In this document: one piece after another, positions 3,867 to 32,468 of the stretch | How positions within the stretch are numbered: position 1 is the first letter of the stretch | How the letters are laid out: every line of letters begins with the position of its first letter | DNA from: an uncultured Alistipes sp. | Lineage (GTDB): Bacteria > Bacteroidota > Bacteroidia > Bacteroidales > Rikenellaceae | Length of the DNA stretch: 32,468 nucleotides | Direction: 5' to 3' | NCBI GenBank assembly: GCA_900542505.1 | Contig: UQNV01000024.1 | Location: forward strand, 1 to 32,468 | Notes under the pieces: generated by a model | What the model saw: the letters and a program-made list of their open reading frames with translations, nothing else | The model's database searches: none | Told to the model about the DNA's origin: nothing | Made by a program: the position numbers and the translations under genes

Positions 3867-4618
3867 CAGTCGCGGCGACCGAGTATCAGGAATACGTAGT
3901 AGAGCACCGATGCGATGGCGCCGAGTGCGGCGACCAGATAGGTGCGTGCGGCCCATCCGAGCGCCTCCTTGGCCTGGACAAGCTGTGCGCCCTGCATCGT
4001 GCGGCTCGATTCGAGCCACTCGAGTGCGCGAGCCGAGGCGTTGTACTCGACCGGGAGGGTGATGAGCGAGAAGATGGCCGACATGGCAATCATCGCCACG
4101 CCGAGCCAGCATACCAGTTCGTTGCGCGTGGTGGCCAGCAGCACCAGACCCAGCAGGATGACCCACGTGGCGGCCGACGAGGCGAACTGCACGACGGGTA
4201 CCAGCTGCGAGCGGAGCGTCAGCGGGGCGTAGTCGCGGGCGTGCTGTACGGCGTGGCCGCACTCGTGGGCGGCAACGGCCGCCGCCGCGACGCTCGTCGA
4301 GTTGTAGACGCTGTCGCTCAGGTTGACGGTCATCGTCTGGGGGTTGAAGTGGTCGGTCAGGTGTCCGGCCACGTGCGTCACCTTGACGTTGTGGATGTTG
4401 TTGTCGCGCAGCATCTTCTCGGCGACCTGGGCGCCCGTCAGGCCGCCCGGGAACTGGACCTTCGAATATTTCTTGAATACCGACTGGAGCCGCGCCTGGA
4501 CGATGTAGCCCGCGATACCGATGGCGATGATGAGCAGGAACATGCCCGACGAGGCGGCGGAGTAGTGTGCGCTCTGTTGGGTGCCCGCATAGAGCAGGGC
4601 GATGAGTGGTTGCAACAT
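3866..4618 (-). CDS. YugP-like zinc-dependent membrane protease
   Basis: A 250-residue membrane metalloprotease of the YugP family (peptidase_Mx / neutral zinc metallopeptidase type 2). Residues 118-122 are HECGH, the zinc-binding HExxH motif, inside the family context AAHECGHAVQH. Hydrophobic segments lie at about 25-40, 140-165, 170-190 and 228-247. It is the first gene of the minus-strand operon that continues with the SGNH, MBOAT and PAP2 genes. The ATG at 4618 is about 54 bases from a good TAnnTTTG promoter element. Its natural substrates are not known in general. Confidence 0.9.
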   Translation of the reverse strand: MLQPLIALLYAGTQQSAHYSAASSGMFLLIIAIGIAGYIVQARLQSVFKKYSKVQFPGGLTGAQVAEKMLRDNNIHNVKVTHVAGHLTDHFNPQTMTVNLSDSVYNSTSVAAAAVAAHECGHAVQHARDYAPLTLRSQLVPVVQFASSAATWVILLGLVLLATTRNELVCWLGVAMIAMSAIFSLITLPVEYNASARALEWLESSRTMQGAQLVQAKEALGWAARTYLVAALGAIASVLYYVFLILGRRD

Positions 4619-4671
4619 GGTGAATAGGTTTAGTTTTCCGTTCTGTGTCGTGTCTTATGGAAAATCAACGG

Positions 4672-4679
4672 CAAATATA
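4672..4679 (-). promoter_or_regulatory. Bacteroidota -7 promoter element before the YugP operon
   Basis: On the minus strand these bases read TATATTTG, a full match to the Bacteroidota -7 consensus TAnnTTTG, in an AT-rich patch within GC-rich surroundings. The start codon at 4618 lies about 54 bases downstream. No clear TTTG -33 box is seen. Confidence 0.6.
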
Positions 4680-4744
4680 CATATTTTATTTCGTTTCGGC
4701 GGGCTTCGCCGGAAAACGTGTCCGGACTCCGCGCCGGCCGGGGG

Positions 4745-5491
4745 TCAGTGGCGCCGGACGGTGTAGTAGGCTCCGGCCTGCTGGGTGGGCATGAGCACCA
4801 TGTCGTTCACGTTCATGTGGGCGGGGAGCTGTGCGGCCCAGGCGATGGCCTCGGCGATGTCGTCGCCCGTCAGGGGCGTCACTCCGTCGTAGACCTTGTC
4901 GGCGCGGGCCTTGTCGCCGTGGAAGCGCACCTCCGAGAATTCGGTCTCGACCATGCCCGGACGGATTTCGGTCACCTTGATGCCGTCGGCCAGCAGGTCG
5001 GCGCGCATCGACTGCGAGATGGCGTGTACGGCGTGTTTCGAGGCGCAGTAGACCGCCCCGTTCTCGTAGGGCTCCGTACCGGCGATGGAGCCGATGTTGA
5101 AGATGTGGCCCCCGCGGGCGGCGACCATCTTGGGGGCGATGACCCGCGTGACGTAGAGGAGCCCCTTGACGTTGGTGTCAATCATCGCGTCCCAGTCGGC
5201 CGTGTCGCCCCGGTCGATGTGTTCCAGTCCGGCGGCCAGTCCGGCGTTGTTGACCAGCAGGTCCACCCGCTCGAGCGGCTCCAGATGGCGGCGCACCTCC
5301 TCCTCGGAGCGTACGTCGAAGCAGAGCGTCGTGCAACGGGCGCCGAGTGCCTCGATTTCGCGGCGGAGCGTCTCGAGCCGTTCGGCACGGCGGCCCGTAG
5401 CCACAATGTCGTATCCTTCCTTTGCCAGACGGAGCGCCGTCGCACGGCCGATGCCGGAGGTCGCTCCCGTAATCAATGCCAGTTTTTTCAT
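4745..5491 (-). CDS. Short-chain dehydrogenase/reductase (YdfG-like)
   Basis: A 248-residue classical SDR oxidoreductase, normal length for the family. It has the cofactor motif TGATSGIG at residues 8-15, NNAG at 81-84, and a catalytic Ser135, Tyr148, Lys152 set (the YCASK motif). Arginines near residues 34-35 after the second strand suggest NADP(H) preference. The whole sequence resembles YdfG-type enzymes, which oxidise 3-hydroxy acids such as serine or L-allo-threonine, but SDR substrate calls from sequence are unreliable. It is transcribed alone on the minus strand and diverges from the permease gene; their start codons are 76 bases apart. Confidence 0.9.
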   Translation of the reverse strand: MKKLALITGATSGIGRATALRLAKEGYDIVATGRRAERLETLRREIEALGARCTTLCFDVRSEEEVRRHLEPLERVDLLVNNAGLAAGLEHIDRGDTADWDAMIDTNVKGLLYVTRVIAPKMVAARGGHIFNIGSIAGTEPYENGAVYCASKHAVHAISQSMRADLLADGIKVTEIRPGMVETEFSEVRFHGDKARADKVYDGVTPLTGDDIAEAIAWAAQLPAHMNVNDMVLMPTQQAGAYYTVRRH

Positions 5492-5533
5492 CGTTCCGGG
5501 GTTTTGTGATGGGCGAAATTACGAAAAAATATG

Positions 5534-5541
5534 TTACTTTG
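5534..5541 (+). promoter_or_regulatory. Probable -7 element for the permease-menG operon
   Basis: TTACTTTG matches TAnnTTTG at seven of eight positions, followed by C as is common. It lies about 26 bases before the GTG start at 5568 and is the only promoter-like element between the divergent genes on this strand. Confidence 0.45.
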
Positions 5542-5567
5542 CACACAATTCCGTAAAACCGCAGGCC

Positions 5568-6815
5568 GTGAATCTTCCCTTTTTCATCGCACGCCGTCTG
5601 GCCTCCTCCTCGTCGGGCAACAAACCTGGTGTGATGGAGCGCATTGCCGTGGTGTCGGTGGCGCTGAGCGTCGCGGTGATGCTCCTCTCGCTGGCCGTCA
5701 TCGTGGGCTTCAAGCGCGAGGTGGTCCGCAACCTGACGGGGCTGGCCTCGCATGCCGTGGTGACCGACATCCGCGGGGTGTCGGCTCCCGACTCGGAGCC
5801 CGTACGGCGTACGGCTGCGCTCGAGGAGCTGCTCCGCAGCGTCGAGGGTTTCGCCTCGATGGCCCCCTATGCCGCGCGAAGCGGCATCGTCCGCACGCCC
5901 GACGCCGTGCAGGGGGTGTTGCTCAAGGGGGTCGACACGACCTACGACTGGGCGTTCCTGGGCCGCTGCCTGCGGGCGGGAGCGCTGCCCCGCGTGGGCG
6001 ATTCGCTGCGGACGAAGGATGTGCTGCTCTCCGAGATGCTGGCCCGCCGGCTGAAGCTCGGCGTGGGCGACAAGGTGGAGATGCTTTTCGTCGAGGGGAG
6101 CGGCATGCGTCCCCGCCGCGACCGCTTCCGTATCTCAGGCCTCTATGCGACGGGTATGGACGAGACGGACGAACTGCTGGCCTTCACCGACCTGCGCAAC
6201 GTGCAGCGTCTGGCCGACTGGCAGCCCGACGAGGTCTCGGGTTACGAGCTCCGCACGGATGATTTCGCGCAGTCGGATGATTTTGCGCGGCGCGTGGCCC
6301 TCCGCCTGCTCTACGACGATGGAGACGAGGCGCAGAACCTGACCGTCACCTCGCTGCGCGAGCTCTATCCCGCCATCTTCGACTGGCTGGCGGCCCACAA
6401 CGTCAACGCCGTCGTGATTGTGGGCATCATGCTCGTGGTGGCCTTCTTCAACATGGCCTCGGCGCTGCTGATTCTCGTACTCGAACGGACGCGGATGATT
6501 GGCCTGCTCAAGGCCCTGGGCATGCGCAACGGCCCGCTGCGTCGGCTCTTCCTCTACCGGGCCGCCTTCATCGCCCTGCGCGGCATGGCGTGGGGCAACG
6601 GCGTGGGGCTGCTGCTCTGTGCCGTGCAGCAGTGGTTCCATGTGGTGAAGCTCGATTCGGAGGGGTATCTCCTCTCGGAGGTGCCCATCGCCCTCGAGTG
6701 GGGGTGGTGGCTTCTGCTCAATGCCGGGGTGCTGGCGGTCATAGTCCTGCTGCTTGTGCTCCCTACCTATATAATATCCTCGGTCAAACCCGAACAAACC
6801 ATCCGATACGAATGA
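5568..6815 (+). CDS. LolC/LolE-like ABC transporter permease (FtsX domain)
   Basis: A 415-residue inner-membrane permease of the lipoprotein-releasing LolC/E type, which extracts outer-membrane lipoproteins from the inner membrane together with the ATPase LolD (not in this window). The order is a first membrane helix at about 25-47, a periplasmic MacB-type core domain at about 48-270, and a C-terminal FtsX domain with three helices at about 280-405 ending in the family-typical SVKPEQTIRYE. The frame is open upstream to 5166 but runs there through the SDR gene, so the GTG at 5568 is preferred: it gives NLPFFIARR, the usual start of Bacteroidota homologues, and sits after a promoter element. 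A later ATG at 5634 would cut into the N-terminal segment. Its stop overlaps menG by four bases. Confidence 0.88.
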   Translation: MNLPFFIARRLASSSSGNKPGVMERIAVVSVALSVAVMLLSLAVIVGFKREVVRNLTGLASHAVVTDIRGVSAPDSEPVRRTAALEELLRSVEGFASMAPYAARSGIVRTPDAVQGVLLKGVDTTYDWAFLGRCLRAGALPRVGDSLRTKDVLLSEMLARRLKLGVGDKVEMLFVEGSGMRPRRDRFRISGLYATGMDETDELLAFTDLRNVQRLADWQPDEVSGYELRTDDFAQSDDFARRVALRLLYDDGDEAQNLTVTSLRELYPAIFDWLAAHNVNAVVIVGIMLVVAFFNMASALLILVLERTRMIGLLKALGMRNGPLRRLFLYRAAFIALRGMAWGNGVGLLLCAVQQWFHVVKLDSEGYLLSEVPIALEWGWWLLLNAGVLAVIVLLLVLPTYIISSVKPEQTIRYE

Positions 6816-7534
6816 CGGTAAAACCCTACGACCCGGAACGTCCCAAGAAGACGCAGGTGCGCGACATGTTCGACCGCATCGCGCCCCGCTACGATTTGCT
6901 CAACCACACCCTTTCGTTCAACATCGACCGCCTGTGGCGCCGCCGCGTGGTGCGTCTTGTGCGCCGCAGCGGCGCGCAGCGCATCCTCGACCTGGCCACC
7001 GGTACGGGCGACCTGGCCATCGACCTGGCGCTCCATGTCCCGGGTGCCCGGGTGCTGGGCGTCGACCTCTCGGAGGGGATGCTCGACATCGCGCGGCGCA
7101 AGGTGGCGGCCCGGGGGCTCGATGCCCGCATCAGGCTCGAACAGGGCGATGCCGAACATCTGGGCGCGGCCGACGCATCGGTCGATGCGCTGACGGTGGC
7201 CTTCGGCGTGCGCAACTTCGGCGACCTCGAAGCGGGTCTGCGCGAGATGGCGCGCACAATAAGACCCGGGGGCAAGGTCGTTATACTGGAGTTCTCGGAA
7301 CCGAAAGGGGCCCTGTTCGGACCGCTCTACCGCTTCTATTCCGGATGGCTGCTGCCCCGTGTCGGCGGAGCCGTCTCGAAGGACCGCAAGGCGTACGAAT
7401 ACCTGCCCGCCTCGGTCGAGGCCTTTCCGGAGCCCGGGGCCTTCATGGAGCTGATGCGCCGGGCGGGCTTCCGCAACTGCCGGGCACGGAGCCAGAGTTT
7501 CGGGATTGCACAAATCTATACGGGAGAGCGATGA
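6812..7534 (+). CDS. menG: Demethylmenaquinone methyltransferase MenG/UbiE
   Basis: A 240-residue SAM-dependent methyltransferase catalysing the last step of menaquinone synthesis, methylation of demethylmenaquinone. Clear family motifs are VRDMFDRIAPRYDLLNH near the N-terminus, the SAM-binding LDLATGTGDLA, the DALTVAFGVRNFGD block, and the EFSEPKG segment. The frame is open upstream, but the ATG at 6812 overlaps the permease stop (ATGA) and gives the normal family length. It overlaps the following lipoprotein gene by four bases. Its presence fits an anaerobic Bacteroidales respiratory chain that uses menaquinone. Confidence 0.95.
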   Translation: MTVKPYDPERPKKTQVRDMFDRIAPRYDLLNHTLSFNIDRLWRRRVVRLVRRSGAQRILDLATGTGDLAIDLALHVPGARVLGVDLSEGMLDIARRKVAARGLDARIRLEQGDAEHLGAADASVDALTVAFGVRNFGDLEAGLREMARTIRPGGKVVILEFSEPKGALFGPLYRFYSGWLLPRVGGAVSKDRKAYEYLPASVEAFPEPGAFMELMRRAGFRNCRARSQSFGIAQIYTGER

Positions 7535-8130
7535 TGCGACGAATCACCTGTCGGAAGGGCCGTGACGCCGGCCGCAAAGAGCGTCGGATGGCCGCTGCAG
7601 GCGGTCTTGTGCGCCTTTGCGCGTGGATGCGGCGGGGGCTGCCCGTGGCCGCCGCACTGCTGGCGGTCATGCTGCTGGGCTCCTGCTCGGGAGCCGTCGA
7701 GCGGGCCCGCCGCAACATCCGCTTCGAAGGCGTCGAGTCGGTCGAGGTTCATGGCCTGTCGTCGCTCGAACTCTCGCTGCGCGCCACCAACGACACGCGG
7801 CGCAACCTCCGGCTCCGGGAGGCGGATTTCGACCTCTATTGGGGCGGGAACCGCGTGGCCCGCGTCGTGCTCATGGAGGAGGTGACGCTTCCGCGGCGGA
7901 CGACGGGCTGCATCGCCACCCGCTGGCGGGTGCGGGTCGACGACCCGCTGACCTTCTACGTTGCGGCCCGGCGTATCGGGCGCGGCGACGTCGACCGGGC
8001 GACGGTTTCGTGGCATGTCCGCGGCCGTTACGGGGTCGCTTCGGCCAATCTTTCGCAGGAAAAGGTCTCTTTGTCGGATTTTTTGCGTAACTTCGGGCTG
8101 TCGGTCGACGACCTGATAAAATTGTTCTGA
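7531..8130 (+). CDS. Predicted lipoprotein, LEA-like
   Basis: A protein of 199 residues from the first ATG, which overlaps the menG stop (ATGA). It holds a lipoprotein signal ending in LLGSC, with the lipidated cysteine at residue 52 of this reading. The signal is oddly long from this start. In-frame ATGs at 7588 and 7627 are alternatives, and the last gives an ordinary 19-residue signal starting MRRGLPVAAAL, so the true start may be 7627. The mature part (VEVHGLSSLELSLRATNDT and onward) resembles LEA14/water-stress-type beta sandwich lipoproteins found in Bacteroidota. Function unknown. It is followed after two bases by the SPOR gene. Confidence 0.75.
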   Translation: MMRRITCRKGRDAGRKERRMAAAGGLVRLCAWMRRGLPVAAALLAVMLLGSCSGAVERARRNIRFEGVESVEVHGLSSLELSLRATNDTRRNLRLREADFDLYWGGNRVARVVLMEEVTLPRRTTGCIATRWRVRVDDPLTFYVAARRIGRGDVDRATVSWHVRGRYGVASANLSQEKVSLSDFLRNFGLSVDDLIKLF

Positions 8131-8132
8131 CT

Positions 8133-8594
8133 ATGCGCAAGTTCATCATGCTGACAGTGGCCCTCGTGGCCGCCTTTTCGCTCCGGGCCCAGTCGCTCGA
8201 GGCTTTCAAGCAACAGCTCGCCCGTCCGGTGGTCTCCGAGGCCGCCTTTGGTACGGCGCGTGTCTCGGTCCGCGAGGCGGACGACGCCGCGCGTGCCGTG
8301 CGCGAACTCTCGCGCAACGAAACGCAGCTGCGGTTCCGTGGCTATCGGGTCTGCATCTTCTTCGACAACGGTCAGGATGCGCGGGCCAAGGCTGTCGAGG
8401 CGAAGACGCTCTTCGAGGAGAGTTTTCCCGGTATACGTGTCTATATGGTCTACGAAAATCCCTACTTCAAGGTGACGGCGGGCGACTGCCTCACGTCGGA
8501 GGAGGCCATCATCCTCAAGGGGCGTGTCCAGGGCGTCTTCCCGAAGGCCTATGTGAAGAACGAGGAACTGTCGGTTGCCGATTTGGTGAAGTAG
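8133..8594 (+). CDS. Exported SPOR-like domain protein
   Basis: A 153-residue protein with a Sec signal peptide (about residues 1-19, cut after LRAQ). The C-terminal half has the pattern of a SPOR domain, a fold that binds denuded glycan strands of peptidoglycan: YRVCIFFDNGQDARAKA, then an Arg-Val-Tyr strand (IRVYMVYENPYFKVTAGD), then a helix with SEEAIILKGRVQGVFPKAYVK. It starts two bases after the lipoprotein stop and is probably the last gene of the permease-menG operon. A role in cell-envelope maintenance or division is inference from the domain. Confidence 0.8.
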   Translation: MRKFIMLTVALVAAFSLRAQSLEAFKQQLARPVVSEAAFGTARVSVREADDAARAVRELSRNETQLRFRGYRVCIFFDNGQDARAKAVEAKTLFEESFPGIRVYMVYENPYFKVTAGDCLTSEEAIILKGRVQGVFPKAYVKNEELSVADLVK

Positions 8595-8647
8595 CTGAAA
8601 AAGTGCGGAATTTTTGTTTTTTTTGTTGCATAATTCCACCGATTATG

Positions 8648-8655
8648 TAATTTTG
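8648..8655 (+). promoter_or_regulatory. Promoter element for the small Cys-rich lipoprotein
   Basis: TAATTTTG fully matches TAnnTTTG. A TTTG at 8622-8625, 22 bases upstream, may act as the -33 box. The start codon at 8692 lies 37 bases downstream. Confidence 0.65.
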
Positions 8656-8691
8656 CGGCGTGAAAAAATAACCATTAAAATTATTCCTGCT

Positions 8692-8919
8692 ATGAAAAAG
8701 ATTTTTTCTTTTGTAGTTGTTCTGGCAGCCGTTGCAATGGTGGGCTGCGCCGGTAATTCGGGCAAGAAGGCTGCTGCCGAGGTTGAGGCTCAGGCTACCG
8801 AGGCTGCTGCATGCGCAGAGTGCACCGAGAAGTGCGATTCGACCGTTTGCGCCGAGGAGTGCGATTCGACGAAGACCGCAGTTGCCGTTGAGGAGACCGC
8901 TGTTGAGGAGAACAAGTAA
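8692..8919 (+). CDS. Small Cys-rich lipoprotein
   Basis: A 75-residue predicted lipoprotein. Residues 1-18 form a signal peptide with lipobox MVGC, lipid on Cys19. The short mature part is Ala/Glu-rich and carries five further cysteines in two similar copies, CTEKCDST and CAEECDST, ending in an acidic tail. The frame opens earlier at 8614, but the ATG at 8692 alone gives a signal peptide and follows a good promoter. It has its own promoter and a strong terminator and so is a single-gene unit, probably well expressed. No family recognised. The cysteines could bind metal or form disulphides. Confidence 0.8.
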   Translation: MKKIFSFVVVLAAVAMVGCAGNSGKKAAAEVEAQATEAAACAECTEKCDSTVCAEECDSTKTAVAVEETAVEENK

Positions 8920-8943
8920 TCGCCTGATACGACGATAGTTCTG

Positions 8944-8978
8944 GAGGGCTTCCGTTTTCGGAAGCCCTCTTCTTTTGT
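8944..8978 (+). terminator. Intrinsic terminator
   Basis: A perfect 11-bp stem (GAGGGCTTCCG with its complement) around a TTTT loop, followed by a T-rich run from 8970. It sits 24 bases after the stop of the Cys-rich lipoprotein gene. Confidence 0.9.
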
Positions 8979-9132
8979 CCCTTGCCGGAGACGTCGGGGC
9001 GGAGCCGCCGCCGCTGCGTGCCCGGAAGTGCTGTGCTGCGTGCCCGGATATGCGCCGGTGGTGACCGGTTCGTGTTCGGCCGTGTCGGGCCGCCTCCGCT
9101 TGGTGCGGGCTGCGGTTGGATGCGGCAGAATG

Positions 9133-9159
9133 CAACACCCCGCCGTCGGCGGGGTGTTG
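9133..9159 (-). terminator. GC-rich hairpin downstream of cca, possible terminator
   Basis: A perfect 12-bp stem (CAACACCCCGCC with its complement) and a three-base loop, 68 bases beyond the cca stop. Neither side carries a good T run, so termination is uncertain. The rest of 8979-9226 shows no convincing gene. Confidence 0.5.
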
Positions 9160-9226
9160 TCGTTCGTATGGCTGAGGGGCGGCGGGCCGCTCCGGCGGCC
9201 GTTGCGCTCCGGCCGGGTCTCCTTTC

Positions 9227-10717
9227 CTAAGATTCGGGTGCGGCCTTGGATTCGGGAGCCTCGGGTGCGGATGCCTTCTCCGGGGCGGATGCCTCGGGAG
9301 CTGCGGCCTCCGTGGCCCGGGCCACGGGGGTCAATCCCCGTTCGGCAGCCAGCCGCTCCATCAGCGCACGGGCCGCCTCGTACTCGTTGGGAATCTCGCC
9401 GTCGAGGATGGCGTTCTTGATGACCTCCTTGATGTCTCCGATGACGCGGCAGGGGCCGATGCCATAGGTCTCCATGATGATTTCGCCCGTGATGGGGGGC
9501 TGGAAGTTGCGGATGCGGTCGCGCTCCTCCAAATCCTTCATCTTGCGCCGCACCAGTTCGAAGTTGGCCAGGAAGCGGCGTACCTTGGCGTCGTTGCCCG
9601 AGGTGATGTCGGCTTCGCAGAGCGTCATCAGTGCCTCGACGTCGTCGCCCGCCTCGAACAGAAGCCGCCGGACGGCCGAGTCGGTGACCAGCTCCTCCGA
9701 GAGGATGATGGGACGCAGGTGGAGGAAGACGAGTTTCTGGACAAACTTCATGTGCTCGTTGAGCGGCAGCTTGAGCTGGCGGAAAATCGCCGGCACCATC
9801 TTCGAACCCAGCACCTCGTGGCCGTGGAAGGTCCACCCGACACGCGGGTCGTAGGCTTTCGTAAGCGGTTTGGCGATGTCGTGCAGCAGCGCGGCCCAGC
9901 GCAGCCAGAGGTCGTCGGAGCGGCGCGCCACGTTGTCGAGCACCTTGAGCGTATGGGCGAAGTTGTCCTTGTGGGCATGCTGTCCCCGCCGTTCGACCCC
10001 CTTGAGGCGGTGCAGCTCGGGGAAAATCAGCTCCAGCAGCCCCGTCAGGTCGAGCAGCTCGAAGCCCATCGAGGGGACGGGCGAGAGGACGATTTTGTTG
10101 AGCTCCGTGATGATGCGCTCGCGCGAGACGATGCGGATGCGTTCGCGGTTGCGGCGGATGGCCTCGAAGGTCTCCTCCTCGATGGAGAAGCCCAGCTGCG
10201 AGGCGAAGCGCACGGCGCGCATCATGCGGAGCGGGTCGTCCGAGAAGGTGACGTCGGGGTCGCACGGCGTGCGGATGATGCAGGCCTCGAGGTCCTCCAT
10301 CCCGCCGAAGGGGTCGACCAACTCGCCGAACGAGTCGCCGTTGAGCGACCACGCCATGGCGTTGATGGTGAAGTCGCGGCGGCGCTGGTCATCCTCGAGC
10401 GTGCCGGGCTCCACCTGCGGCTTGCGCGAATCGTGGCTGTAGGACTCCTTGCGGGCCCCCACGAATTCGACCTCGACACCCCGGCTGCGGACCATCGCCG
10501 TGCCGAAGGTCTTGAAGACCGAGACGCGGGCATGCAGCTCGGCTGCGAGCGCTTCGGCCACCTCGATGCCGCTCCCGACCACCACCACGTCGATGTCGGT
10601 CGACGGGCGGCGCAGGTAGTAGTCGCGGACGTAGCCCCCCACGACGAAGGCCCGCAGGCCCCGCTCGTCGGCTATGCGCCCGATGCGGCGGAATATGGGT
10701 TGCGAGAGCGGCTCCAC
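9227..10717 (-). CDS. cca: CCA-adding tRNA nucleotidyltransferase with HD domain and Ala/Pro tail
   Basis: A 496-residue class II nucleotidyltransferase that builds or repairs the 3' CCA end of tRNAs. The N-terminal catalytic head has VVGGYVRD at about 25-32 and the metal-binding pair Asp41-x-Asp43 (STDIDVV), then [10 protein letters not shown] and [13 protein letters not shown]. An HD phosphohydrolase-type domain follows, with [11 protein letters not shown] and LLHDIAKP around 250-285. The last 35 or so residues are a low-complexity Ala/Pro/Glu/Ser stretch with repeated APE-type units, not part of the catalytic fold. The ATG at 10717 is one base after the stop of the SGNH gene, so it is co-transcribed with pdxJ and that gene. 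Confidence 0.93.
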
Positions 10718-21537: not shown

Positions 21538-21796
21538 TATGTTGGCTTTGGGTATCGCTGGACAGCAGGACGCAGTGTAGTTGTCAAGGTCACGATGCTG
21601 TCGAGAATCTGCTGCTCGCGTTTGTGTCGGTGATGTCGGCCATCTGCTTGGCTGCCGAGAGATTCTTGGCCGTAAGCGGTGGACTAATTTCAAGTGATGC
21701 CTGCATCGAATTTGCCCAAGTGTAGAGTGTTGCGATATCCACTGAAGAGAAGTATCTGTAATGTAGAGATGGACTCTTTTCGACGCAGTGAAACAT
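21538..21796 (-). pseudogene. Broken 3' remnant of an unidentified gene, left copy
   Basis: On the minus strand the frame PLTAKNLSAAKQMADI continues after a one-base deletion near 21624 as KREQQILDSIVTLTTTLRP and ends at a TAA (21538-21540). The same protein end, without the frameshift, is found at 29376-29720, where it reads PLTAKDLSAAKQMADIIDA then KREQQILDCIRIL. Upstream of about 21680 the two copies no longer match, and the left frame runs to an ATG at 21796 with unrelated residues. So this is a truncated, frameshifted fragment. I do not recognise the parent gene. Confidence 0.65.
21601..21679 (+). repeat. Direct repeat, left copy
   Basis: 79 bases matching 29413-29492 in the same orientation: by hand alignment about 74 of 80 columns identical, with one gap and five mismatches. 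It is the shared coding part of the two gene remnants that bracket the Wadjet-like operon. Confidence 0.85.
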
Positions 21797-22238: not shown

Positions 22239-22481
22239 ATTCTGTTGGGAACTTCTAAATGATATATTTTGCGCAATATGGATTGTTGTTCGAATAAAAA
22301 ATAGTAAATTGCATTAGAGCAACAATGTGAAATGTGGCTTTGTGAGATTGAAGTCTCTCCTTGGGCGATAAGGCAATTATTGGGATGGTTACTTGAGTTT
22401 CAGATTCTTCGGGAGTCTACTTGCCGGTCAAACACGCAATAGTGAAAGTAAATATAGAGTCAATCTCAGAGTGGTAAATGT
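22239..22481 (+). other. AT-rich leader upstream of the Wadjet-like operon
   Basis: No gene seen. It should hold the operon promoter, but no full TAnnTTTG match was found on the plus strand. The nearest is TATATTTTG at about 22261-22269, with one extra base between the two half-sites. Confidence 0.4.
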
Positions 22482-23681
22482 ATGGATGTTCTGACGCATT
22501 TTAGGAGCATAGAGGAGTTGGCCAAAACGCTCTCACGTGAGCAAGGACTGCTCAGTGAGATGTTTGAGAAACGGAAACTCATGAGGTTTCCGGTCGCGCT
22601 TGCTATTGACCTTGTCGGAGGAAATGAAGCCAGGCTGCGGAAGTTGATTGACTATGGCGTGCTGGTGGAAGCTGGCAACATGGTAGAGATTGAGAGTGAC
22701 TACCTGAACTTTTTCGAGGAGGTCCTGAATGTCAACGAGGAAATCAGCGTGCTGAGTGTACAGGAGTGTATCAATACGTTGAAGGAGAATATCGGCTATT
22801 TTCTGCAGGAGACCAATCCCGGCCGTAAAGCGGGGTATCAGGATAATGTCCGGCAGCTTCTCAAGAAGACCGGCTTCAGAACCTTGAAAAATGTAGTGGA
22901 TTTGAAGCGTAATATGGACCATGCATATAAGCAGGAGCCGAATTATGTCATCAAAAAGAAGAAACTGCAGAATCTGGACGAGAAGAGTCATAGCATTCGT
23001 GCCATGATACGCGAGTGTGAAAAGCTGATGGATAATGAGCATGCCTTTTTCATCATGGCCAATGACCCGCATATGGCCAAGACCTGTAGCGATGTGAAGC
23101 ATGATTTTGTTGAGGCCTACCATGCGCTGATGGAGATTGACCGGCAGATTATCTCTTATATCAATCAGATAGACCAGCAAAATGAACTCTACAGAAAAAT
23201 CCGGAAGCTGAAATATTTGCAAGATCAGCTGCTGATCAAGAGTGAAACGAACCTCTCGAAGGTGTTGGAAGAGCGGAATCCGGTTTGGATGGAGTCCCGT
23301 CAATACAGCCGGATCCGCCTCTCACTTGAGATGTTGCGGGGGAACGATCAGATCATCAAACTGCTGAAGCGCGTCGCCGGGCGCAATGGAATCCAGAAAA
23401 CGGCAAGAACCGCAGACGAGCCTTTGACGGATGATGATTTGCAGGACCATGTCCAACTATTGAAGGAGGTGAATCTTGCCGAAATATGGAATGCATTCCT
23501 GGCATCAAGCTATAATCTGTTCGATTTCATTTTGAGGTACGACTATAAGGTAAAACATAATATTGAGGAGTATGCTGCAATCTTCTGTCAATTGGTTATC
23601 CTGCATCCTGATGAATGCCGAATGACCGGAGAATATGCCATCTACCAAAATATTGAATATCCGATTATTTATGCGAAATAA
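22482..23681 (+). CDS. Wadjet-like JetA (kleisin-type subunit)
   Basis: A 399-residue, largely helical, charged protein. Its place as first gene, its size, and its layout point to the kleisin (MukF/JetA) subunit of an SMC-type anti-plasmid complex: an N-terminal winged-helix-like part (about 20-75, with LMRFPVALAIDLVGGNEARLRKLIDYGVL), a long helical middle (about 85-300), and a C-terminal winged-helix-like part (about 345-399, YAAIFCQLVILHPDECRMTG). Kleisins bridge the SMC heads and bind the MukE-like subunit. It overlaps jetB by 11 bases, which implies translational coupling. GC content is clearly lower than in the core genes to the left. Direct sequence motifs are weak; the call rests mostly on operon order and on JetB, JetC and JetD. 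Confidence 0.72.
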   Translation: MDVLTHFRSIEELAKTLSREQGLLSEMFEKRKLMRFPVALAIDLVGGNEARLRKLIDYGVLVEAGNMVEIESDYLNFFEEVLNVNEEISVLSVQECINTLKENIGYFLQETNPGRKAGYQDNVRQLLKKTGFRTLKNVVDLKRNMDHAYKQEPNYVIKKKKLQNLDEKSHSIRAMIRECEKLMDNEHAFFIMANDPHMAKTCSDVKHDFVEAYHALMEIDRQIISYINQIDQQNELYRKIRKLKYLQDQLLIKSETNLSKVLEERNPVWMESRQYSRIRLSLEMLRGNDQIIKLLKRVAGRNGIQKTARTADEPLTDDDLQDHVQLLKEVNLAEIWNAFLASSYNLFDFILRYDYKVKHNIEEYAAIFCQLVILHPDECRMTGEYAIYQNIEYPIIYAK

Positions 23682-24228
23682 TACCCAAAGAATATACGAG
23701 CGTTTAAGCCGGGGCGAATTCCTCTCGGTCGACAGCATCGACGCCTCTACCCGCCATCTGTATGAGGATATAGAGGAGAACCTGGAGGATTACACGGATT
23801 ATTTTCGGGAGATTGGGCTGCAACTCGAAGCGGGGAATGGTTACTTCTATTTTTCCCGAATAGGAGAGAGTAAACAGTCCATTGAGCAGAAGTTGGACAG
23901 CTTCTCCAAATGGCTGGACTATCTGGACTTTCTGAAGTGCTATAACCAATCCTTTACGGCCGGATATCAGTTTCGTAAGAGTCATTTGATGGAGCAGATC
24001 AGCCTGGATATCGAGATGAAGGAGAAGGCGAACCATCTTTTCAAGAAATATGGTGCGGGGTCTCTTGTCGAGATTGTGAACAAGCTGCTTCAGGAGATGC
24101 AGAATATGGGCTTTGCGGAGTGTGTCAATGAGCTTGACGAGACCTATAAGGTCACTTCGGCATTCCGCTATGTAGAGGAGTTGGTGGACATCATTCAAAT
24201 TGCAAACGAAGATGAAGTACCTGAATAA
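23671..24228 (+). CDS. Wadjet-like JetB (MukE-type subunit)
   Basis: A 185-residue protein from the ATG at 23671. It overlaps the jetA stop by 11 bases and jetC by 17. The early part (SVDSIDASTRHLYEDIEENL, then DYTDYFREIGLQLEAGNGYFYFSR) has the pattern of the JetB/DUF4194-like winged helix, in which a wing strand ends in an aromatic-rich YFYF segment. A second helical, winged-helix-like half follows to about residue 175. In the family it is the MukE-like partner of the kleisin and the SMC ATPase. An earlier ATG at 23635 lies within jetA and adds 12 residues; it is less likely. Confidence 0.75.
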   Translation: MRNNTQRIYERLSRGEFLSVDSIDASTRHLYEDIEENLEDYTDYFREIGLQLEAGNGYFYFSRIGESKQSIEQKLDSFSKWLDYLDFLKCYNQSFTAGYQFRKSHLMEQISLDIEMKEKANHLFKKYGAGSLVEIVNKLLQEMQNMGFAECVNELDETYKVTSAFRYVEELVDIIQIANEDEVPE

Positions 24229-27200
24229 AGTCATTTTTATAAATAGCGCGAATATCCCCTATGCAGAGATCGCTGTAGACGGGAATGTGCATTTTACGGG
24301 AACGCAGGGTGTGGGTAAAAGCACCGTGTTGAGAGCGCTCTTGTTTTTCTACAATGCCGACAAGCATCGTTTGGGCATTCAGCAGGGACAGAAATCGTTT
24401 GATGAATTCTATTTCCGCCAGTCAAACTCGTATATACTTTATGAAGTGATGCGTGAGAATGGCGCATATACGATCCTTGTCGGTCGCTACCAGGGGCGAG
24501 CTTCGTGGCGGTTTATTGATGCACCGTATAAGCGGGAATGGCTGATTACCGAGGACAAGCAGGTGTTGAGTGACTGGATTCGGATTCGGGAACGCATCGA
24601 CAAGAATGTGGCTGTCTCCGCAAGAATCGAATCCGGTGCCATGTTCAAGGATATTATCTTCGGCAACACCCGCGATTCCAAATACGCGCGTTATGCCCTG
24701 GTGCAGAGTTCGCATTATCAGAATATTCCACGAAGTATCCAGAATGTTTTTTTGAATACGAAGCTGGATGCCGACTTTGTGAAGAACACCTTGATACAAT
24801 CCATGACAGAGGAGGATCTGCCGATTGACTTGCAGACCTACAGAAGACTTGTTACGGATTTCGAACGGGAGTATGATGAGATAGACTGCTGGTTCCGTCA
24901 GTCTCGTGATGGTAGTTTTCCCGTGCGTCAGCAGGCGATGAAAATTGCAGACCAGGGGCGCAAGATTATCGCGCTCGATCAGCAATTGCTGGACGTGTGG
25001 CATATGCTGAATGAAGCGGTCGCATTTAGTGAACAACAGATTCCGCTTCTGGAAGAAAAAGCAAAGGAGGTAAAGAGCAGCATTGAGAAAGAACGGACCC
25101 GGGAGCGGGAATTGACGGCAGACTACGACAAGGAGAAAGCCCAGCTCAATCAGGATCTTGGTGCCAAAAAGGGTAAATTGGCGGATATAGCGAAGGCGAG
25201 AAAAGAGTTTGATGCACTGGGTATTGGCCCGATTCTCGCTCTTGCCGACCGAGAGACCGCTATTCGACAGGAGACGACGGATAAACAGACGCTGTTGGAT
25301 GGTTTATTGAGAACTCATGCTTCGATAGAGGAGAAATACAAGGTATTAAAGGGAAATCTGGAGAATGCCCGACAAGCATTTGAGAACTCCCAGAAAGAGG
25401 CATATTATAACAAGCAGGCCGAACTTCAGCAGCAGCGCGTTAAGCTGGATGAGGACCGCACCCAAAAACGGAATCGGGTCATGGAGGTTTTCAACAGCTG
25501 GAGGCATGACTCGGACGAACGGTGGCAAATGTTGCTGGTGGACCAGAATCGGGCAGAAGCTGCGCTGCGAGAGCTTCGTCAATGGCATCCCATGGCCGAT
25601 GCAATCAAGCAGGTGGATGAACAACTCCTGCAATTGAATCTGAACGAGAACGAAAATTCTGCCCAGCAGAGTGCTGTGAAAAGTCAGATTGAACAGCTCG
25701 CCGCCGAGTACAAGATGCAAGAAGCGGACGTAAAGCGGACCTTTCAACGTGAGCAGGAACATCTTGAGGCGGCTCGTTCCAAAATCCGAGAACAAGTCGC
25801 AAGGATTGATAGCTTGCTTGCTCACCTGGACGGCTCACTTTACAAGTGGCTTTGTGAAAATACGGAAGGCTGGGAGAATACGATTGGTAAGGTCGTTGAT
25901 GAGGAGCGGGTTTTATACGCTGAGGGGCTTGAGCCTCGGCTGTCCGGTGCCAGCGATGGGTTGTTCGGCATCCAGTTAAACCTGGATAATATTGACTCGG
26001 TCCATCGTACTCCCGACGAGTACAGGGTGGAGAAGGAGCGGTTGGAAGAACAGGTGCAGCAGTTAGAGCGTCAGTTGGCACAATTGCTTGCTACCCATGA
26101 GGATGAAATGGGAGAACTCCGTAAGAAATATGCTGCGCTGATTAATCCTCTTCGTCAAAGTGCAACCTTATTGAAGGTGGAGGAGGAACAGATCCCCGGC
26201 AAACGTCAGGAATTGCAAATCCAGCGGCATAAACTGGAGATGGAGGAACAGGAAGAGATTACTCGGGAGGCCGAAGTCCGTCAACGTGCTTGCAATGACG
26301 CAGTTTTGAAGGTGCAATTGGAGAAAGAGGCCCGTGAGAAGAATGAACTGAAGAACAAGAAAGAGTTGAAGGACCTTGATTCGGCATTCGACAAGGCTTC
26401 CAAAGCTCTTGATGCGGAGTTACGTGCCTTCAAGGCGTCACAAAACGAGGAGGCCGCCGCGCGCAATCAGGAGTTTGCCGATCAGAAGAAGCAACTTGAC
26501 AAACAGCAGAACGAAGAGCTTGCCGGGAAAGGCGTTGACACGCATCTGCTTGAGCAATATCGTAAGGAGCTGGAAGATTTGCAGGGACTGTTAAAAAGAA
26601 TTGATAAAGAACGACCGATTGTTATCAGATATCGTGATGCCGAAAAAAATCTCTTTGCCGTGGAACCGGAAATCAAAGAGAGCATGAAAGCTATTGAAAG
26701 GCAACTCTCCTCGATCCGGCAGCACTATGATGACAAACGGGAGCGTATTTTGAGACGGTGCGCGGAGCTGGACGAGAGCCAGAAAAAACTCCTAAAGGAG
26801 CTGGAGCATAGGCGTGAGGGGCTGGAGCGTTATCACCAGATGCTCGATAATGAACATCTGGTGCCGGATACTTATCTCACGGATGACAGGACGATGAAGA
26901 CGCAGCAGGATTGTCAGCAGCTCTTGAGCCAATTGCGGGGAGTTGTCAATCAAAAACGGGAATCAATCGAGAAATTGAAATCCGTCGTTGTCAGCTTCAA
27001 TCGGAACTTCAAGCCTCAGAATGCTTTCCACTTCAACACAATGCCGGTGACGGATGCTGACTACATGCAAATTGCGGTTGATTTGCAGGACTTCATGGAC
27101 AATAACAAAATCGAGGAGTTCCGCCGACGGACCAGCGAGCATTACAAAGACATCATGGGGCGTATTTCGGCCGAAATCGGGTCCCTCATGAAACGAAGGT

Positions 27201-27862
27201 CGGATGTGGATGGTGTGATACAGGATATAAACCGGGATTTCGTCGAGAAGAATTTTGCCGGAGTCATCAAGAGCATTGAACTCCGAGCCGATGCATCGAG
27301 CGACAAGCTCATGCAGTTGCTGATTTCTATTCACGATTATACGATGGAGAATGCGCTCACCATCGGCGAACTGAATCTTTTCTCGGACAATAACCAGGAT
27401 GAAGTGAACCGTAAGGTCGTCGATTATCTGAAGAGTCTGTCGCATCAGTTACAGAATGAGCCCAATCGTGCGACGGTATCCTTGGGAGATGCTTTCCGGC
27501 TGCAGTTCCGTGTCAAAGAGAATGACAACGACACGGGCTGGGTGGAACGTATCAATAACGTCGGATCGGATGGTACGGATATTCTTGTGAAGGCGATGGT
27601 CAATATCATGCTCATCAATGTCTTTAAGAAAAAGGCAGCCAAAAAGAGTGGTGATTTCATCGTCCACTGCATGATGGATGAGATCGGGCGTCTGCATCCC
27701 AACAATATAAAGGGGATTCTGCAGTTCGCCAACTCACGCAATATCTATCTTATCAACAGCTCGCCTACGTCGTACAATCCTTACGACTATCGCTATACAT
27801 ACCTCCTCAGTAAACAAGGCGTGAAGACGAGGGTTGAGAAATTATTGCAACGAATCAATTAG
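24212..27862 (+). CDS. Wadjet-like JetC (SMC-type ATPase)
   Basis: A 1216-residue SMC/MukB-like ATPase. The Walker A motif GTQGVGKST is at residues 30-38, in the JetC-like context VHFTGTQGVGKSTVLRALLFFYNADKH (split over residues 27-53). The head continues to about 225 with ARYALVQSSHYQNIPRSIQ and LNTKLDADFVK, as in other JetC proteins. Long charged coiled-coil arms follow (about 260-560 and 640-920), with a hinge-like break near 560-620. The C-terminal head has a signature-like NNVGSDGTDILVKAMVNIM and a Walker B ending in Asp1156-Glu1157 (FIVHCMMDEIGRLHP). It would extrude plasmid DNA loops with ATP so that JetD can cut. The ATG lies inside jetB (17-base overlap); a TTG 12 bases earlier is less likely. 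Confidence 0.88.
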   Translation: MKYLNKVIFINSANIPYAEIAVDGNVHFTGTQGVGKSTVLRALLFFYNADKHRLGIQQGQKSFDEFYFRQSNSYILYEVMRENGAYTILVGRYQGRASWRFIDAPYKREWLITEDKQVLSDWIRIRERIDKNVAVSARIESGAMFKDIIFGNTRDSKYARYALVQSSHYQNIPRSIQNVFLNTKLDADFVKNTLIQSMTEEDLPIDLQTYRRLVTDFEREYDEIDCWFRQSRDGSFPVRQQAMKIADQGRKIIALDQQLLDVWHMLNEAVAFSEQQIPLLEEKAKEVKSSIEKERTRERELTADYDKEKAQLNQDLGAKKGKLADIAKARKEFDALGIGPILALADRETAIRQETTDKQTLLDGLLRTHASIEEKYKVLKGNLENARQAFENSQKEAYYNKQAELQQQRVKLDEDRTQKRNRVMEVFNSWRHDSDERWQMLLVDQNRAEAALRELRQWHPMADAIKQVDEQLLQLNLNENENSAQQSAVKSQIEQLAAEYKMQEADVKRTFQREQEHLEAARSKIREQVARIDSLLAHLDGSLYKWLCENTEGWENTIGKVVDEERVLYAEGLEPRLSGASDGLFGIQLNLDNIDSVHRTPDEYRVEKERLEEQVQQLERQLAQLLATHEDEMGELRKKYAALINPLRQSATLLKVEEEQIPGKRQELQIQRHKLEMEEQEEITREAEVRQRACNDAVLKVQLEKEAREKNELKNKKELKDLDSAFDKASKALDAELRAFKASQNEEAAARNQEFADQKKQLDKQQNEELAGKGVDTHLLEQYRKELEDLQGLLKRIDKERPIVIRYRDAEKNLFAVEPEIKESMKAIERQLSSIRQHYDDKRERILRRCAELDESQKKLLKELEHRREGLERYHQMLDNEHLVPDTYLTDDRTMKTQQDCQQLLSQLRGVVNQKRESIEKLKSVVVSFNRNFKPQNAFHFNTMPVTDADYMQIAVDLQDFMDNNKIEEFRRRTSEHYKDIMGRISAEIGSLMKRRSDVDGVIQDINRDFVEKNFAGVIKSIELRADASSDKLMQLLISIHDYTMENALTIGELNLFSDNNQDEVNRKVVDYLKSLSHQLQNEPNRATVSLGDAFRLQFRVKENDNDTGWVERINNVGSDGTDILVKAMVNIMLINVFKKKAAKKSGDFIVHCMMDEIGRLHPNNIKGILQFANSRNIYLINSSPTSYNPYDYRYTYLLSKQGVKTRVEKLLQRIN

Positions 27863-27871
27863 TCGGATGAT

Positions 27872-28729
27872 ATGGCAATCAATGCATCTATACAGGCATT
27901 GTTGGCTGGTGAACAAGTCGCAGGTTCGAAGCTAAACAGCCGGCTGCTTGACGAGCTGCTGGCGGAAGGTCTGCTATTGGTCCTGTCTCGCGGCTCAAGA
28001 AAATCGTATCGGGCTCGTGACCCGGAGGCTCTTAAACGATTTCTCATAGACAGGGACGAAAGCTATCGAATCCTCGAAGTGGATCAACCGAATTCCCGTG
28101 CCTCAATGGCCGCGGAAACCGGAAACTCCAAACTCGTTATGGTTCGTTCCTGCCCGGGGTTCCCGGTGAACAGCTATGAACCGATTGCGTGTCTTCTTGA
28201 CGGAAAGCCATTCGTGGTAAATCCGCAGGAGGGAAGCTTCCTCTTTGTCACCGATTGGGAGCGTTTTGCGATTCCGGAGGATGTAGTGATGGTTGGTGTC
28301 GAGAATATGGAGAACTTCCGGATGATTCGTCGGCAAAGAGTATTCTTTGAACAATATCTTCAGTCGCATGACCTCTCAACCCGGGTGCTCTTTGTCTCCC
28401 GATATCCGCAATCCACGGATTTAAGGAGATGGCTATGCACTATCCCGAATCATTATCTGCATTTTGGCGATTTTGATTTGGCCGGGATAAATATTTTCCT
28501 TGTCGATTTTCAACAGTATCTGGGCGAAGAACGCTCTTCATATTTAATCCCCGACGATGTGGAATCGCGCCTGAAATCGGGCTCCAGGAAGAGATACGAT
28601 GAACAGTATAACCGTTTTAAGAGTATCAAATCCGAAGTGCCAGAATTGCAGCACTTGATAGATTTAATCCATCGCGAGCGGAAAGCCTATGATCAAGAGG
28701 GTTATATCTGTGAAGGTCAACCTTCTTAA
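27872..28729 (+). CDS. Wadjet-like JetD (Toprim-fold nuclease)
   Basis: A 285-residue protein starting nine bases after the jetC stop. Residues about 5-65 look like a winged helix (SKLNSRLLDELLAEGLLLVL, then a basic strand SRKSYRARD). The C-terminal part is a Toprim-like, topoisomerase VI A-type domain: a strand ending in Glu144 (VVMVGVENMENF) and the Asp200-Phe-Asp202 motif in HFGDFDLAG. These are the expected metal-binding residues of JetD, the subunit that cleaves closed circular plasmids. It is shorter than the roughly 380-400 residue JetD of the best-studied systems and seems to lack their long N-terminal arm. Confidence 0.8.
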   Translation: MAINASIQALLAGEQVAGSKLNSRLLDELLAEGLLLVLSRGSRKSYRARDPEALKRFLIDRDESYRILEVDQPNSRASMAAETGNSKLVMVRSCPGFPVNSYEPIACLLDGKPFVVNPQEGSFLFVTDWERFAIPEDVVMVGVENMENFRMIRRQRVFFEQYLQSHDLSTRVLFVSRYPQSTDLRRWLCTIPNHYLHFGDFDLAGINIFLVDFQQYLGEERSSYLIPDDVESRLKSGSRKRYDEQYNRFKSIKSEVPELQHLIDLIHRERKAYDQEGYICEGQPS

Positions 28730-29375: not shown

Positions 29376-29720
29376 TTATGGCCTCTTTTTTGTTCCCAGA
29401 ATTCGGATGCAGTCGAGAATCTGCTGCTCGCGTTTCGCGTCGATGATGTCGGCCATCTGCTTGGCCGCCGATAGATCCTTGGCCGTAAGCGGCCTGCCCT
29501 GCTTCGAGAGGAAGCACCCCTTGGCTCCCGCCACGCGCTGCCACTTCGGGGTGATGAACCGTGCGGCGCTCAGCGATTCGAGCAGCAGCGCCAGCAGCTT
29601 GTTGTGGGTTGTCTGCAACGGCTCCGGACGTTGGCAGGCGAGCAGCTGTTCGACCTTCAGGCGGGTGATATTGCGAATTCTGTCATTCTCATCACCCTCC
29701 AGTTTTTCGGCGATGCGGAG
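29376..29720 (-). pseudogene. N-terminally truncated gene remnant, right copy
   Basis: An open frame of 114 codons without ATG, bounded upstream by a TAA at 29721-29723. It reads RIAEKLEGDENDRIRNITRL, QTTHNKLLALLLESLSAARF, ITPKWQRVAGAKGCFLSK, GRPLTAKDLSAAKQMADIID and KREQQILDCIRIL in order. It is GC-rich like the core chromosome, unlike the AT-rich genes on either side. A TTG at 29616 could start an 80-residue protein, but a broken gene is more likely given the second, frameshifted copy at 21538. The parent family is not recognised. Confidence 0.6.
29413..29492 (+). repeat. Direct repeat, right copy
   Basis: 80 bases matching 21601-21679 in the same orientation. Together they bracket a 7.7-kb segment that holds the zinc-ribbon remnant, the Wadjet-like operon and the small repeat protein. 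Confidence 0.85.
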
Positions 29721-29901: not shown

Positions 29902-31401
29902 TTACTCTTTCTGATATTTGGAATAGGCCCTTTTTTGTCGAATCTTTTCATCGATTAAAGCAGCAAGTTCCGACATCTGTGTTTGAGAATCTTTACTGAT
30001 ATCTATTTTTTGATAGCCAATGTTGGATAATGGATCGGTTGCAGAGAGTTGAAAATCATTCGTAATTATGGGTATTATTTTCTCCTCCTTAAGCTTTTCC
30101 TTATATAATTTACTCTCAAATACAGTCCATACCTTATGAGCATAGTTTTTGTCCATAAAAACAATGATGTATTCGGCATCTGATGTATATATTGGCCGAA
30201 AATACTCTTCTAAATCTTTTCCTAAAATATCAGCCTTTACATCAAAGTCATAGAAAACATTGTAATTATATTCGGTTGTCAATATTTCATATAGGGTATT
30301 GGGAAAATCTCTAATTTCACCGGCAAATGATAATGCAAAATCATATTTGTTTATTAAATCTGGATTAATGAAGCCTATATCTGATGCGAATTGTTTCCAA
30401 TCCAGGTTCTTCAAATAGAACATAAATTTAGGATCCTCAATTGTTAATGTTTTTGCATTCTCGTCATAATGAATTTTATTGATGAGAAAATCATTTTTGC
30501 TTATTAAATCTGTTAGGTATCCTTTCTCGACGACCTGTGAGACACTTTGTTTGTATAGGGGATGTTTAGCATATATGCTGTCCATTTGAATGGACCAATC
30601 GGGTGATTGCGATAACCATTGAAGTAAATGGAGATAAGGAGCCCGCCCCTCTCTTCTAATGCGCGTGCCTGTTGCAAAGGTTCTAGCTATTGGTTCATAA
30701 ACTCGAGCCATCTCGGCTATTTTTGATTTGCAGGCGTCGTCCGCTGAGATAGCTATGGTTTTAATGCTTTCTTGTGTCTCTGTAATTCCGGCTTTAATAC
30801 AGATTTCTTTACATAAGATTTGGGCAATGTGGAAACTTCCATTAACCTTGTTGATTAGATTATTCTTATCCTTAATTCTGATGTTAAGTGCTTTTTCTCC
30901 TTTGTGTATAAGTTCTAGGATTTTTTCGGGAGAGTTGGATTCATATCGGATTGTATCAATTCTATTGTTTAAATCTGGAGATAATTGTATTAACCCTTCT
31001 CCCGCATTATTAATACCAATAAGGATGAGTTTGATATCTTCTCTATTTTCGTCTGCTGCTGTTTTTAATAAATTGGCCAACGCTTCTCGTCGTTCTTTTG
31101 ATAATAGATGAAAGTCGTCTATAATAATCGTTCCTGTATTTTTTGAGTCAGTTAGGACTAAATCTATCAATTCTATATCTTCTCTCTTCCGAGCAGAGAG
31201 AGGATGATATGGCATCTTAATTTCTGAAATAATTTGAGTTATGGATGTCGTTTTCCCAATACCGGAAGGGCCTTCAACGATGAGGCCTTTTCCTTTTGTT
31301 TGGATTGCTACTTTTGTTTTTATGTATTCTTGCGGTTCAACAAATGTGTATGAAGGGAATCCGGTATCTTTGAATACATCGGCAATAAATAATTTTTCCA
31401 T
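29902..31401 (-). CDS. P-loop NTPase with C-terminal TIR-like domain
   Basis: A 499-residue protein, probably a defence gene. An N-terminal AAA+/STAND-like NTPase has Walker A GPSGIGKTT at 44-52 and Walker B TIIIDDFHLL with Asp95-Asp96; helical parts follow to about 345. From about 351 there is a TIR-like domain: YDFALSFAGE at 353-362, then VFYDFDVKADILGKDLEEY, YIIVFMDKNYAHKVWTVFES with Trp425 and Glu429 as the probable NADase glutamate, and IIPIITND. In known systems such TIR domains destroy NAD+ when a sensor is triggered and so stop infected cells. The gene is AT-rich (by eye well under 40% GC), unlike its surroundings, which indicates transfer. The trigger is unknown. Confidence 0.85.
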   Translation of the reverse strand: MEKLFIADVFKDTGFPSYTFVEPQEYIKTKVAIQTKGKGLIVEGPSGIGKTTSITQIISEIKMPYHPLSARKREDIELIDLVLTDSKNTGTIIIDDFHLLSKERREALANLLKTAADENREDIKLILIGINNAGEGLIQLSPDLNNRIDTIRYESNSPEKILELIHKGEKALNIRIKDKNNLINKVNGSFHIAQILCKEICIKAGITETQESIKTIAISADDACKSKIAEMARVYEPIARTFATGTRIRREGRAPYLHLLQWLSQSPDWSIQMDSIYAKHPLYKQSVSQVVEKGYLTDLISKNDFLINKIHYDENAKTLTIEDPKFMFYLKNLDWKQFASDIGFINPDLINKYDFALSFAGEIRDFPNTLYEILTTEYNYNVFYDFDVKADILGKDLEEYFRPIYTSDAEYIIVFMDKNYAHKVWTVFESKLYKEKLKEEKIIPIITNDFQLSATDPLSNIGYQKIDISKDSQTQMSELAALIDEKIRQKRAYSKYQKE

Positions 31402-32437: not shown

Positions 32438-32444
32438 ATTATAT

Positions 32445-32468
32445 CTGTCTCTTATACACATCTCCGAG
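32445..32468 (-). other. Nextera Read 2 adapter (library artefact)
   Basis: CTGTCTCTTATACACATCT (32445-32463) is the reverse complement of the Tn5 mosaic end, and CCGAG begins the Nextera Read 2 adapter. Genomic sequence ends at about 32444. Confidence 0.98.

Follow-up and report, generated by a model that had tools for sequence, protein, structure and literature searches.

The type I Wadjet operons and MksBEFG (as in Corynebacterium glutamicum and Pseudomonas aeruginosa PA14) are the described systems closest in design to the locus analysed here: one operon encodes a kleisin, a KITE protein, an SMC ATPase and a TOPRIM nuclease, the last with a Glu and an Asp-x-Asp like those of TopoVIA. An operon with the same four parts, and with the same TOPRIM residues, occupies positions 22482–28729 on the plus strand of a 32,468-nucleotide stretch (the window) of contig UQNV01000024.1, from an uncultured Alistipes sp. 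We assign a probability of about 0.8 to the reading that this is a complete SMC–kleisin–KITE motor operon with its own TOPRIM nuclease, Wadjet/MksBEFG-like, belonging to a separate lineage with a short DUF7281 nuclease. Judged by PADLOC 2.0.0 and Pfam, the system is outside the catalogued types.

Gene content and fold assignments

The operon comprises gene A (22482–23681, 399 residues), a kleisin-like subunit resembling JetA, MksF and MukF; gene B (23671–24228, 185 residues), an MksE/MukE-like KITE subunit; gene C (24212–27862, 1216 residues), an SMC/MukB-like ATPase; and gene D (27872–28729, 285 residues), a short TOPRIM nuclease. A and B overlap by 11 bases, B and C overlap by 17, and nine bases separate C from D, just as an earlier note, made from the letters of this DNA, had described. 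The longest open reading frame for B begins at 23635; we place its start at 23671 because start sites are conserved in relatives, and this choice yields the 11-base overlap with A. Both overlaps are found again in many relatives, in which the spacing between C and D is variable. The operon is no chance frame, since its proteins are 36–99% identical across 80 loci.

The SMC subunit is the most readily placed. Pfam model PF12128 (DUF3584) matches gene C with 183.4 bits over residues 18–1186, nearly its whole length, which puts this MukB-like ATPase in the DUF3584 SMC family rather than in an unrelated one. Its Walker A motif, GTQGVGKST, spans residues 30–38, and a C-terminal Walker B, HCMMDE, spans residues 1152–1157, in line with the Walker A and C-terminal Walker B named in the earlier note; among relatives, a Walker A pattern lies within the first 80 residues in 74 of 75 SMC rows, and 73 of the 75 have a Walker B-like DE. 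MukB_N (PF04310) does not match gene C at an expectation value (E) of 0.1. Gene B scores 138.8 bits against the MksE model PF21980 (cut-off 27), so the note's MukE-like second gene is a KITE protein of the MksE family; the same model also matches in the E. coli control genome, a point of likeness to MukBEF.

Gene D matches PF23947 (DUF7281) with 36 bits, against a cut-off of 27, and is predicted to fold as a short winged helix plus a TOPRIM domain, like MksG, TopoVIA and JetD; residues 1–75 align with small winged-helix domains in this prediction. The acidic residues singled out in the earlier note, Glu144 and Asp200-x-Asp202, are identical in 71 of 71 rows, and D resembles JetD in combining them with the absence of a topoisomerase CAP tyrosine. 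We regard as established here the operon's gene content, order and conservation, the membership of C and B in their SMC and KITE families, the TOPRIM fold prediction, the conservation of the acidic residues, and the patchy distribution and lateral transfer described below. Gene A has no Pfam match above cut-off; its fold matches are weak, with MukF chains among the best of them. Among relatives of gene A (P0237), the name ‘predicted RNA-binding protein with RPS1 domain’ is given by one source and is probably a misannotation of the kleisin-like gene. NCBIfam returned nothing above cut-off for the operon proteins, and sequence searches of the PDB, with D alone, C alone and the alignments of all four proteins, turned up neither an SMC nor a kleisin nor a TOPRIM protein.

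Comparison with Wadjet types I, II and III

The four parts of a Wadjet are all represented: profiles and folds identify B, C and D, and a weaker fold match points to A as the likely kleisin. The yardstick for type I was an operon of the same phylum, L158, whose gene order is that of the window operon. Its products match DUF3375, DUF4194, SbcC_Walker_B and DUF3322/JetD_C in Pfam, and reach 476, 186, 1035 and 383 bits on the PADLOC models JetA1, JetB1, JetC1 and JetD1. By contrast, the best scores of the window proteins are 23.2 bits for JetD1, 20.2 for JetC1 and 15.7 for JetB1, and gene A has no JetA match; the E-values are 2.6e-3 for JetB1, 3e-5 and 6e-4 for JetC1, 8e-6 and 1.5e-3 for JetD1, 2.5e-4 and 1e-3 for JetC3, and 0.04 for DrmMI. 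The best stretches of the two JetC3 matches are residues 604–1006 and 283–573 of C. JetD2 and JetD3 gave no match at E 0.1; types II and III were compared through PADLOC profiles, on the assumption that the library holds JetA and JetB models of those types.

The type I domains likewise lack clear matches: DUF3375 (PF11855) does not match gene A at E 0.1, neither DUF3322 (PF11795) nor JetD_C (PF09983) matches gene D at that threshold, DUF4194 stays far below its cut-off in the operon, and the SbcC Walker B model is unmatched. Type I nucleases are also longer (374 residues in 7til and 392 in L158, versus 285 for D), and they include the DUF3322 half that D lacks. Profile–profile comparison by hhalign set the window family against type I-like proteins, eight each for A, B and C and seven for D, a set in which L158 itself was scanned and the rest were picked by layout and size. 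It gave E 0.04 for A, 0.004 for B, 0.0004 for C and 0.0024 for D, while four mismatched pairs, as negative control, gave 0.04–0.24; A therefore has no detectable sequence kinship to type I, and that of B, C and D is faint. The earlier note had held that parts and order match Wadjet/MksBEFG: the list of parts and their order stand, whereas the Jet profiles match marginally and the profile–profile likeness is weak (B, C, D) or at noise level (A). Its guess of a divergent or unassigned subtype was right.

Of a sample of 198 Bacteroidota genomes, 26 encode nucleases with DUF3322; none is found in G001, the genome that holds L001, one of the two nearest relatives. PMC10123090 counts DUF3322-DUF2220 MksG-like proteins in Bacteroidetes at 4.2%. 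In open PubMed Central (subscription papers and preprints fall outside this scope), we found no paper with the term ‘DUF7281’ and no description of this lineage.

Relatives and distribution

A GTDB 220 set with a single genome for each prokaryotic species was scanned with D; 80 of the 83 relatives detected were kept. The complete A-B-C-D order with near-normal gene lengths is present at 63 of the 80 loci, including L012, whose C gave a match in two pieces and is shorter by 76 residues. Of the remaining 17, sixteen have truncated, masked or broken genes: the upstream side is lost at a contig end in eleven (L004, L014, L027, L028, L038, L045, L047, L054, L057, L060, L067), D is cut by a contig end in L075, bases are masked in L022 and L065, and C is interrupted or shortened in L032 and L068. 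The last, L048, is a nuclease alone, with no A, B or C in its 20.6 kb. By their titles the loci are from Bacteroidota, except for a metagenome-assembled genome labelled Bacillota (L021) and an ‘uncultured bacterium’ (L076). At E 0.001, a protein collection clustered at 90% identity contains 5052 relatives of D and 1631 of A. The nearest relatives, in Alistipes sp. Marseille-P5061 (L001) and Candidatus Alistipes faecigallinarum (L002), have 95% DNA identity across the operon, which fits the earlier note's Alistipes-type chromosome.

The SMC and nuclease trees looked unlike for L070–L076, and nuclease exchange between lineages was considered; we claim no exchange, because none of the tested arrangements is rejected by the nuclease data (approximately unbiased test, p 0.458, 0.456 and 0.0915). 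C had no match in 50,697 phage records, and among viral contigs the 22 pattern stretches for D included no relative. A complete D-bearing operon (L111) lies on the 157-kb circular plasmid pPP6 of Persicobacter psychrovividus, and large plasmids can thus carry the system; pPP6 carries an annotated relaxase-domain gene and is typed as non-mobilizable in PLSDB.

Distant relatives of the system are present in gammaproteobacteria. On plasmids of Vibrio and Pseudomonas (L112, L113), DUF7281 operons share the DUF3584 SMC and the MksE KITE, and also encode a 412–421-residue protein and a DUF7281 nuclease of 281/285 residues, in the order C-B-A-D as opposed to A-B-C-D in the window. By hhalign, C aligns with this kind at E 1e-42, D at 4e-9 and B weakly at 2e-5; no sequence likeness is detectable between the A proteins (E 0.04). 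A different four-gene operon, at 3658–9769 of L165, encodes a MukB_N (PF04310) SMC, MksE, a 442-residue protein and a 282-residue protein with CEN and CDWD motifs; it is nearly invisible to PADLOC and is possibly another short-nuclease lineage.

Other relatives have no nuclease. In Parabacteroides distasonis (L110) and on Persicobacter plasmid pPP3 (L114), MksBEF-like operons consist of A, B and C, clear homologues of those in the window, followed by an unrelated, oppositely oriented gene; L162 has no D within 16 kb, and L161 ends so close to C that the presence of D is unreadable there. Against this set of four, hhalign gave E 5e-84 for A, 1e-52 for B and 3e-238 for C. In the SMC tree they are mixed with D-bearing relatives on long branches, and the loss or gain of D is not datable. 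The contig with the L110 operon (4191–9630, between an oxidoreductase gene and NAD synthase) is filed as a plasmid, yet is full of housekeeping genes.

The distribution of the D-bearing system is patchy, with at least one recent transfer across families. Genomes positive for D number 2 of 180 in the genus of G001, 21 of 393 in its order and 2 of 395 in its phylum (one of these a weak partial match), as judged with the D alignment; all of these are lower bounds, since the first look scores few candidates per genome and completeness is not stated. MksE of any kind was found in 23 of 198 genomes of the order. Around the operon, L019 (P. distasonis) and L018 (Bacteroides muris) have 10.5 kb in common at 98.0% DNA identity, and L017 and L020 have 8.3 kb in common with L019 at about 99%, the mark of recent transfer between families. 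Similarity between the window and its two Alistipes relatives, at 95%, covers 22079/22116–28729 and ends with the end of D. The guanine-plus-cytosine (GC) content passes from 54–69% in the first 22 kb of the window to 45–50% at the operon.

Neighbouring genes and flanking DNA

A conserved segment ahead of gene A at 22257–22326 (plus strand), probably a promoter or regulatory region, has counterparts of 78–85% identity over 51–74 bases in front of the operon at nine loci outside Alistipes. At L010 the segment (3282–3341) is followed by an inserted accessory gene (3362–4606) and then by gene A from 4611. This accessory gene, of the AAA_14-DUF4143 type, stands just upstream in ten loci (L006, L010, L011, L029 and L032; L009 and L017–L020), with a remnant in L012, and A starts 5–28 positions past its last base; since the conserved segment recurs upstream of it in L010 and its kin, the gene is probably inside the transcription unit. 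Elsewhere, A is preceded by a YhcG/DUF1016 nuclease gene at a distance of 2 positions (L064, L072) or by a RhuM gene at 5 (L068), and an SLFN_AlbA_2 gene sits between B and C (L046, L052, L066). The SLFN_AlbA_2 genes are of two different kinds, and the 3' end of the L046 insert resembles the end of B, so that the 17-base overlap with C is kept. These identities come from Pfam runs on one member per group, or two for AlbA; no such insert was seen in the window operon. Of 58 upstream neighbours examined, 34 have no similar partner in the set. PMC3710099 describes loci in which restriction-modification genes are accompanied by toxins of the RhuM-like and Fic/Doc kinds; this favours a defence role by analogy only.

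The operon is flanked by an imperfect direct repeat of about 87 bp, whose left copy (21594–21679) is 92% identical to the right copy (29406–29492), 7.8 kb away and within an apparent minus-strand gene remnant. The window contains two occurrences of its 38-base core, where 100 shuffles give an expectation of 0.00. The repeats could mark an old insertion or recombination, and their link to the system is putative. Adjoining the operon at 29902–31401, on the minus strand and with a GC content of 34–46%, is a gene for a 499-residue AAA/STAND-like ATPase that ends in a TIR-like domain (TIR_2, 28.1 bits) and matches the PADLOC candidate PDC-S59 at 5e-25. At the end of the window, a minus-strand frame (32441–32468) begins SEMCIRDR, which we take to be a common assembly or adapter artefact; the last ~25 bases may be non-genomic.

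Alternative interpretations

The motor and nuclease might act mainly against phage DNA or phage-induced structures, in the manner of Lamassu. The adjacent AAA-TIR gene matches a candidate phage-defence model, and some relatives are accompanied by the RhuM, SLFN_AlbA_2 or YhcG genes described above; on the other hand, MksE, DUF3584 and kleisin-like subunits with a TopoVIA-like TOPRIM protein are the make-up of Wadjet, and the Lamassu (LmuB) profiles do not match the window SMC at E 0.1. We consider this reading unlikely.

A second possibility, that the operon encodes a chromosome-organising condensin of the MksBEF type in Bacteroidales, with the TOPRIM protein as a chromosomal accessory and no plasmid-cutting effector, would suit the existence of D-less relatives, one of them (L110) amid housekeeping genes. 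It would also suit Hi-C data in PMC10197239, on two gut Bacteroidetes without known condensin homologues, one of which has a secondary-diagonal signal. The L110 operon bears on the Bacteroides condensin still sought in that paper, though MksE is confined to the 23 order genomes counted above. Bearing in mind that the genus and order counts, lower bounds as they are, are far too patchy for a housekeeping condensin, and that MksE of any kind is scarce, we set this interpretation aside as the main one; the recent cross-family transfer and the conservation of D with its acidic residues also oppose it, and we hold it to be very unlikely. A third idea, mere sequence drift within one of the ordinary Wadjet types (I, II or III), has in its favour the four parts, the gene order of L158, the same TOPRIM motifs and the weak JetB1, JetC1, JetC3 and JetD1 matches, and is nonetheless improbable given the gulf between the scores of a same-phylum type I operon and those obtained here, the unmatched type I domains and the faint or noise-level hhalign values.

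Returning to a separate Wadjet/MksBEFG-like lineage, several observations count against it. None of the four genes gives a clear match to a catalogued Jet profile, and the kleisin assignment of A, though likely, derives from weak fold matches. At least three ABC operons (L110, L114, L162) are without D, so the motor can serve without a nuclease. The operon may be inherited vertically in three Alistipes genomes, since purC is 93% identical between the window and G001: the operon has the same orientation and lies on the same side of purC in the window, G001 and G405 (taken as the genome of L002), at about 1, 15 and 8 kb respectively. What lies next to purC varies across the nine genomes compared. 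Finally, no clear enrichment of defence genes was seen when 76 flanking proteins, drawn at random from 344 (385 before removal of near-copies), were compared at E 1e-10 with 76 control proteins (77 before that removal) from ten other stretches of Bacteroidales genomes. The flanks matched 85 PADLOC families and the controls 55; among the 25 families listed for each set, the top ones are hit by 3 members in both, and most of the 25 flanking Pfam families listed are those of ordinary genes.

Proposed mechanism and significance

By analogy with type I Wadjet, we propose that the four-gene machine probably destroys invading circular DNA in gut bacteria. A, B and C would assemble into a MukBEF/JetABC-like motor dimer, which would load onto DNA and extrude loops with ATP. 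On a closed circle of limited size, extrusion would exhaust the available DNA and bring a D dimer onto it; Glu144 and Asp200-x-Asp202 of D would bind metal, both strands would be cut, and the circle, whether a plasmid or a mobile element in its circular intermediate form, would end up linearised. Assembly of the complex, loop extrusion, size-dependent recognition, cleavage and the nature of the target are all inferred from what is known of type I.

A broader proposal, to which we give even odds, is that this is an uncatalogued Wadjet lineage, marked by a half-size nuclease (DUF7281) and a motor with MksE and DUF3584 subunits, that spans Bacteroidota and gammaproteobacteria. In gut Bacteroidales it would be a transferable and modular cassette that polices conjugative elements in their circular intermediate form, with toxin-like or regulatory partner genes taken up near the promoter and at internal sites.

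On this broader proposal, D, with only a winged helix where type I JetD has its DUF3322 half, would need an off-state and a switch-on unlike those of JetD. Because that half is absent, D offers a natural comparison for how such nucleases are silenced and switched on. The D-less relatives make the step from condensin to defence testable inside one family. And if the system does restrict plasmids, the 5052 relatives of D, set against the marginal PADLOC matches of the window operon, would make it a common yet unlabelled obstacle to gene exchange and to genetic manipulation of gut Bacteroidales.
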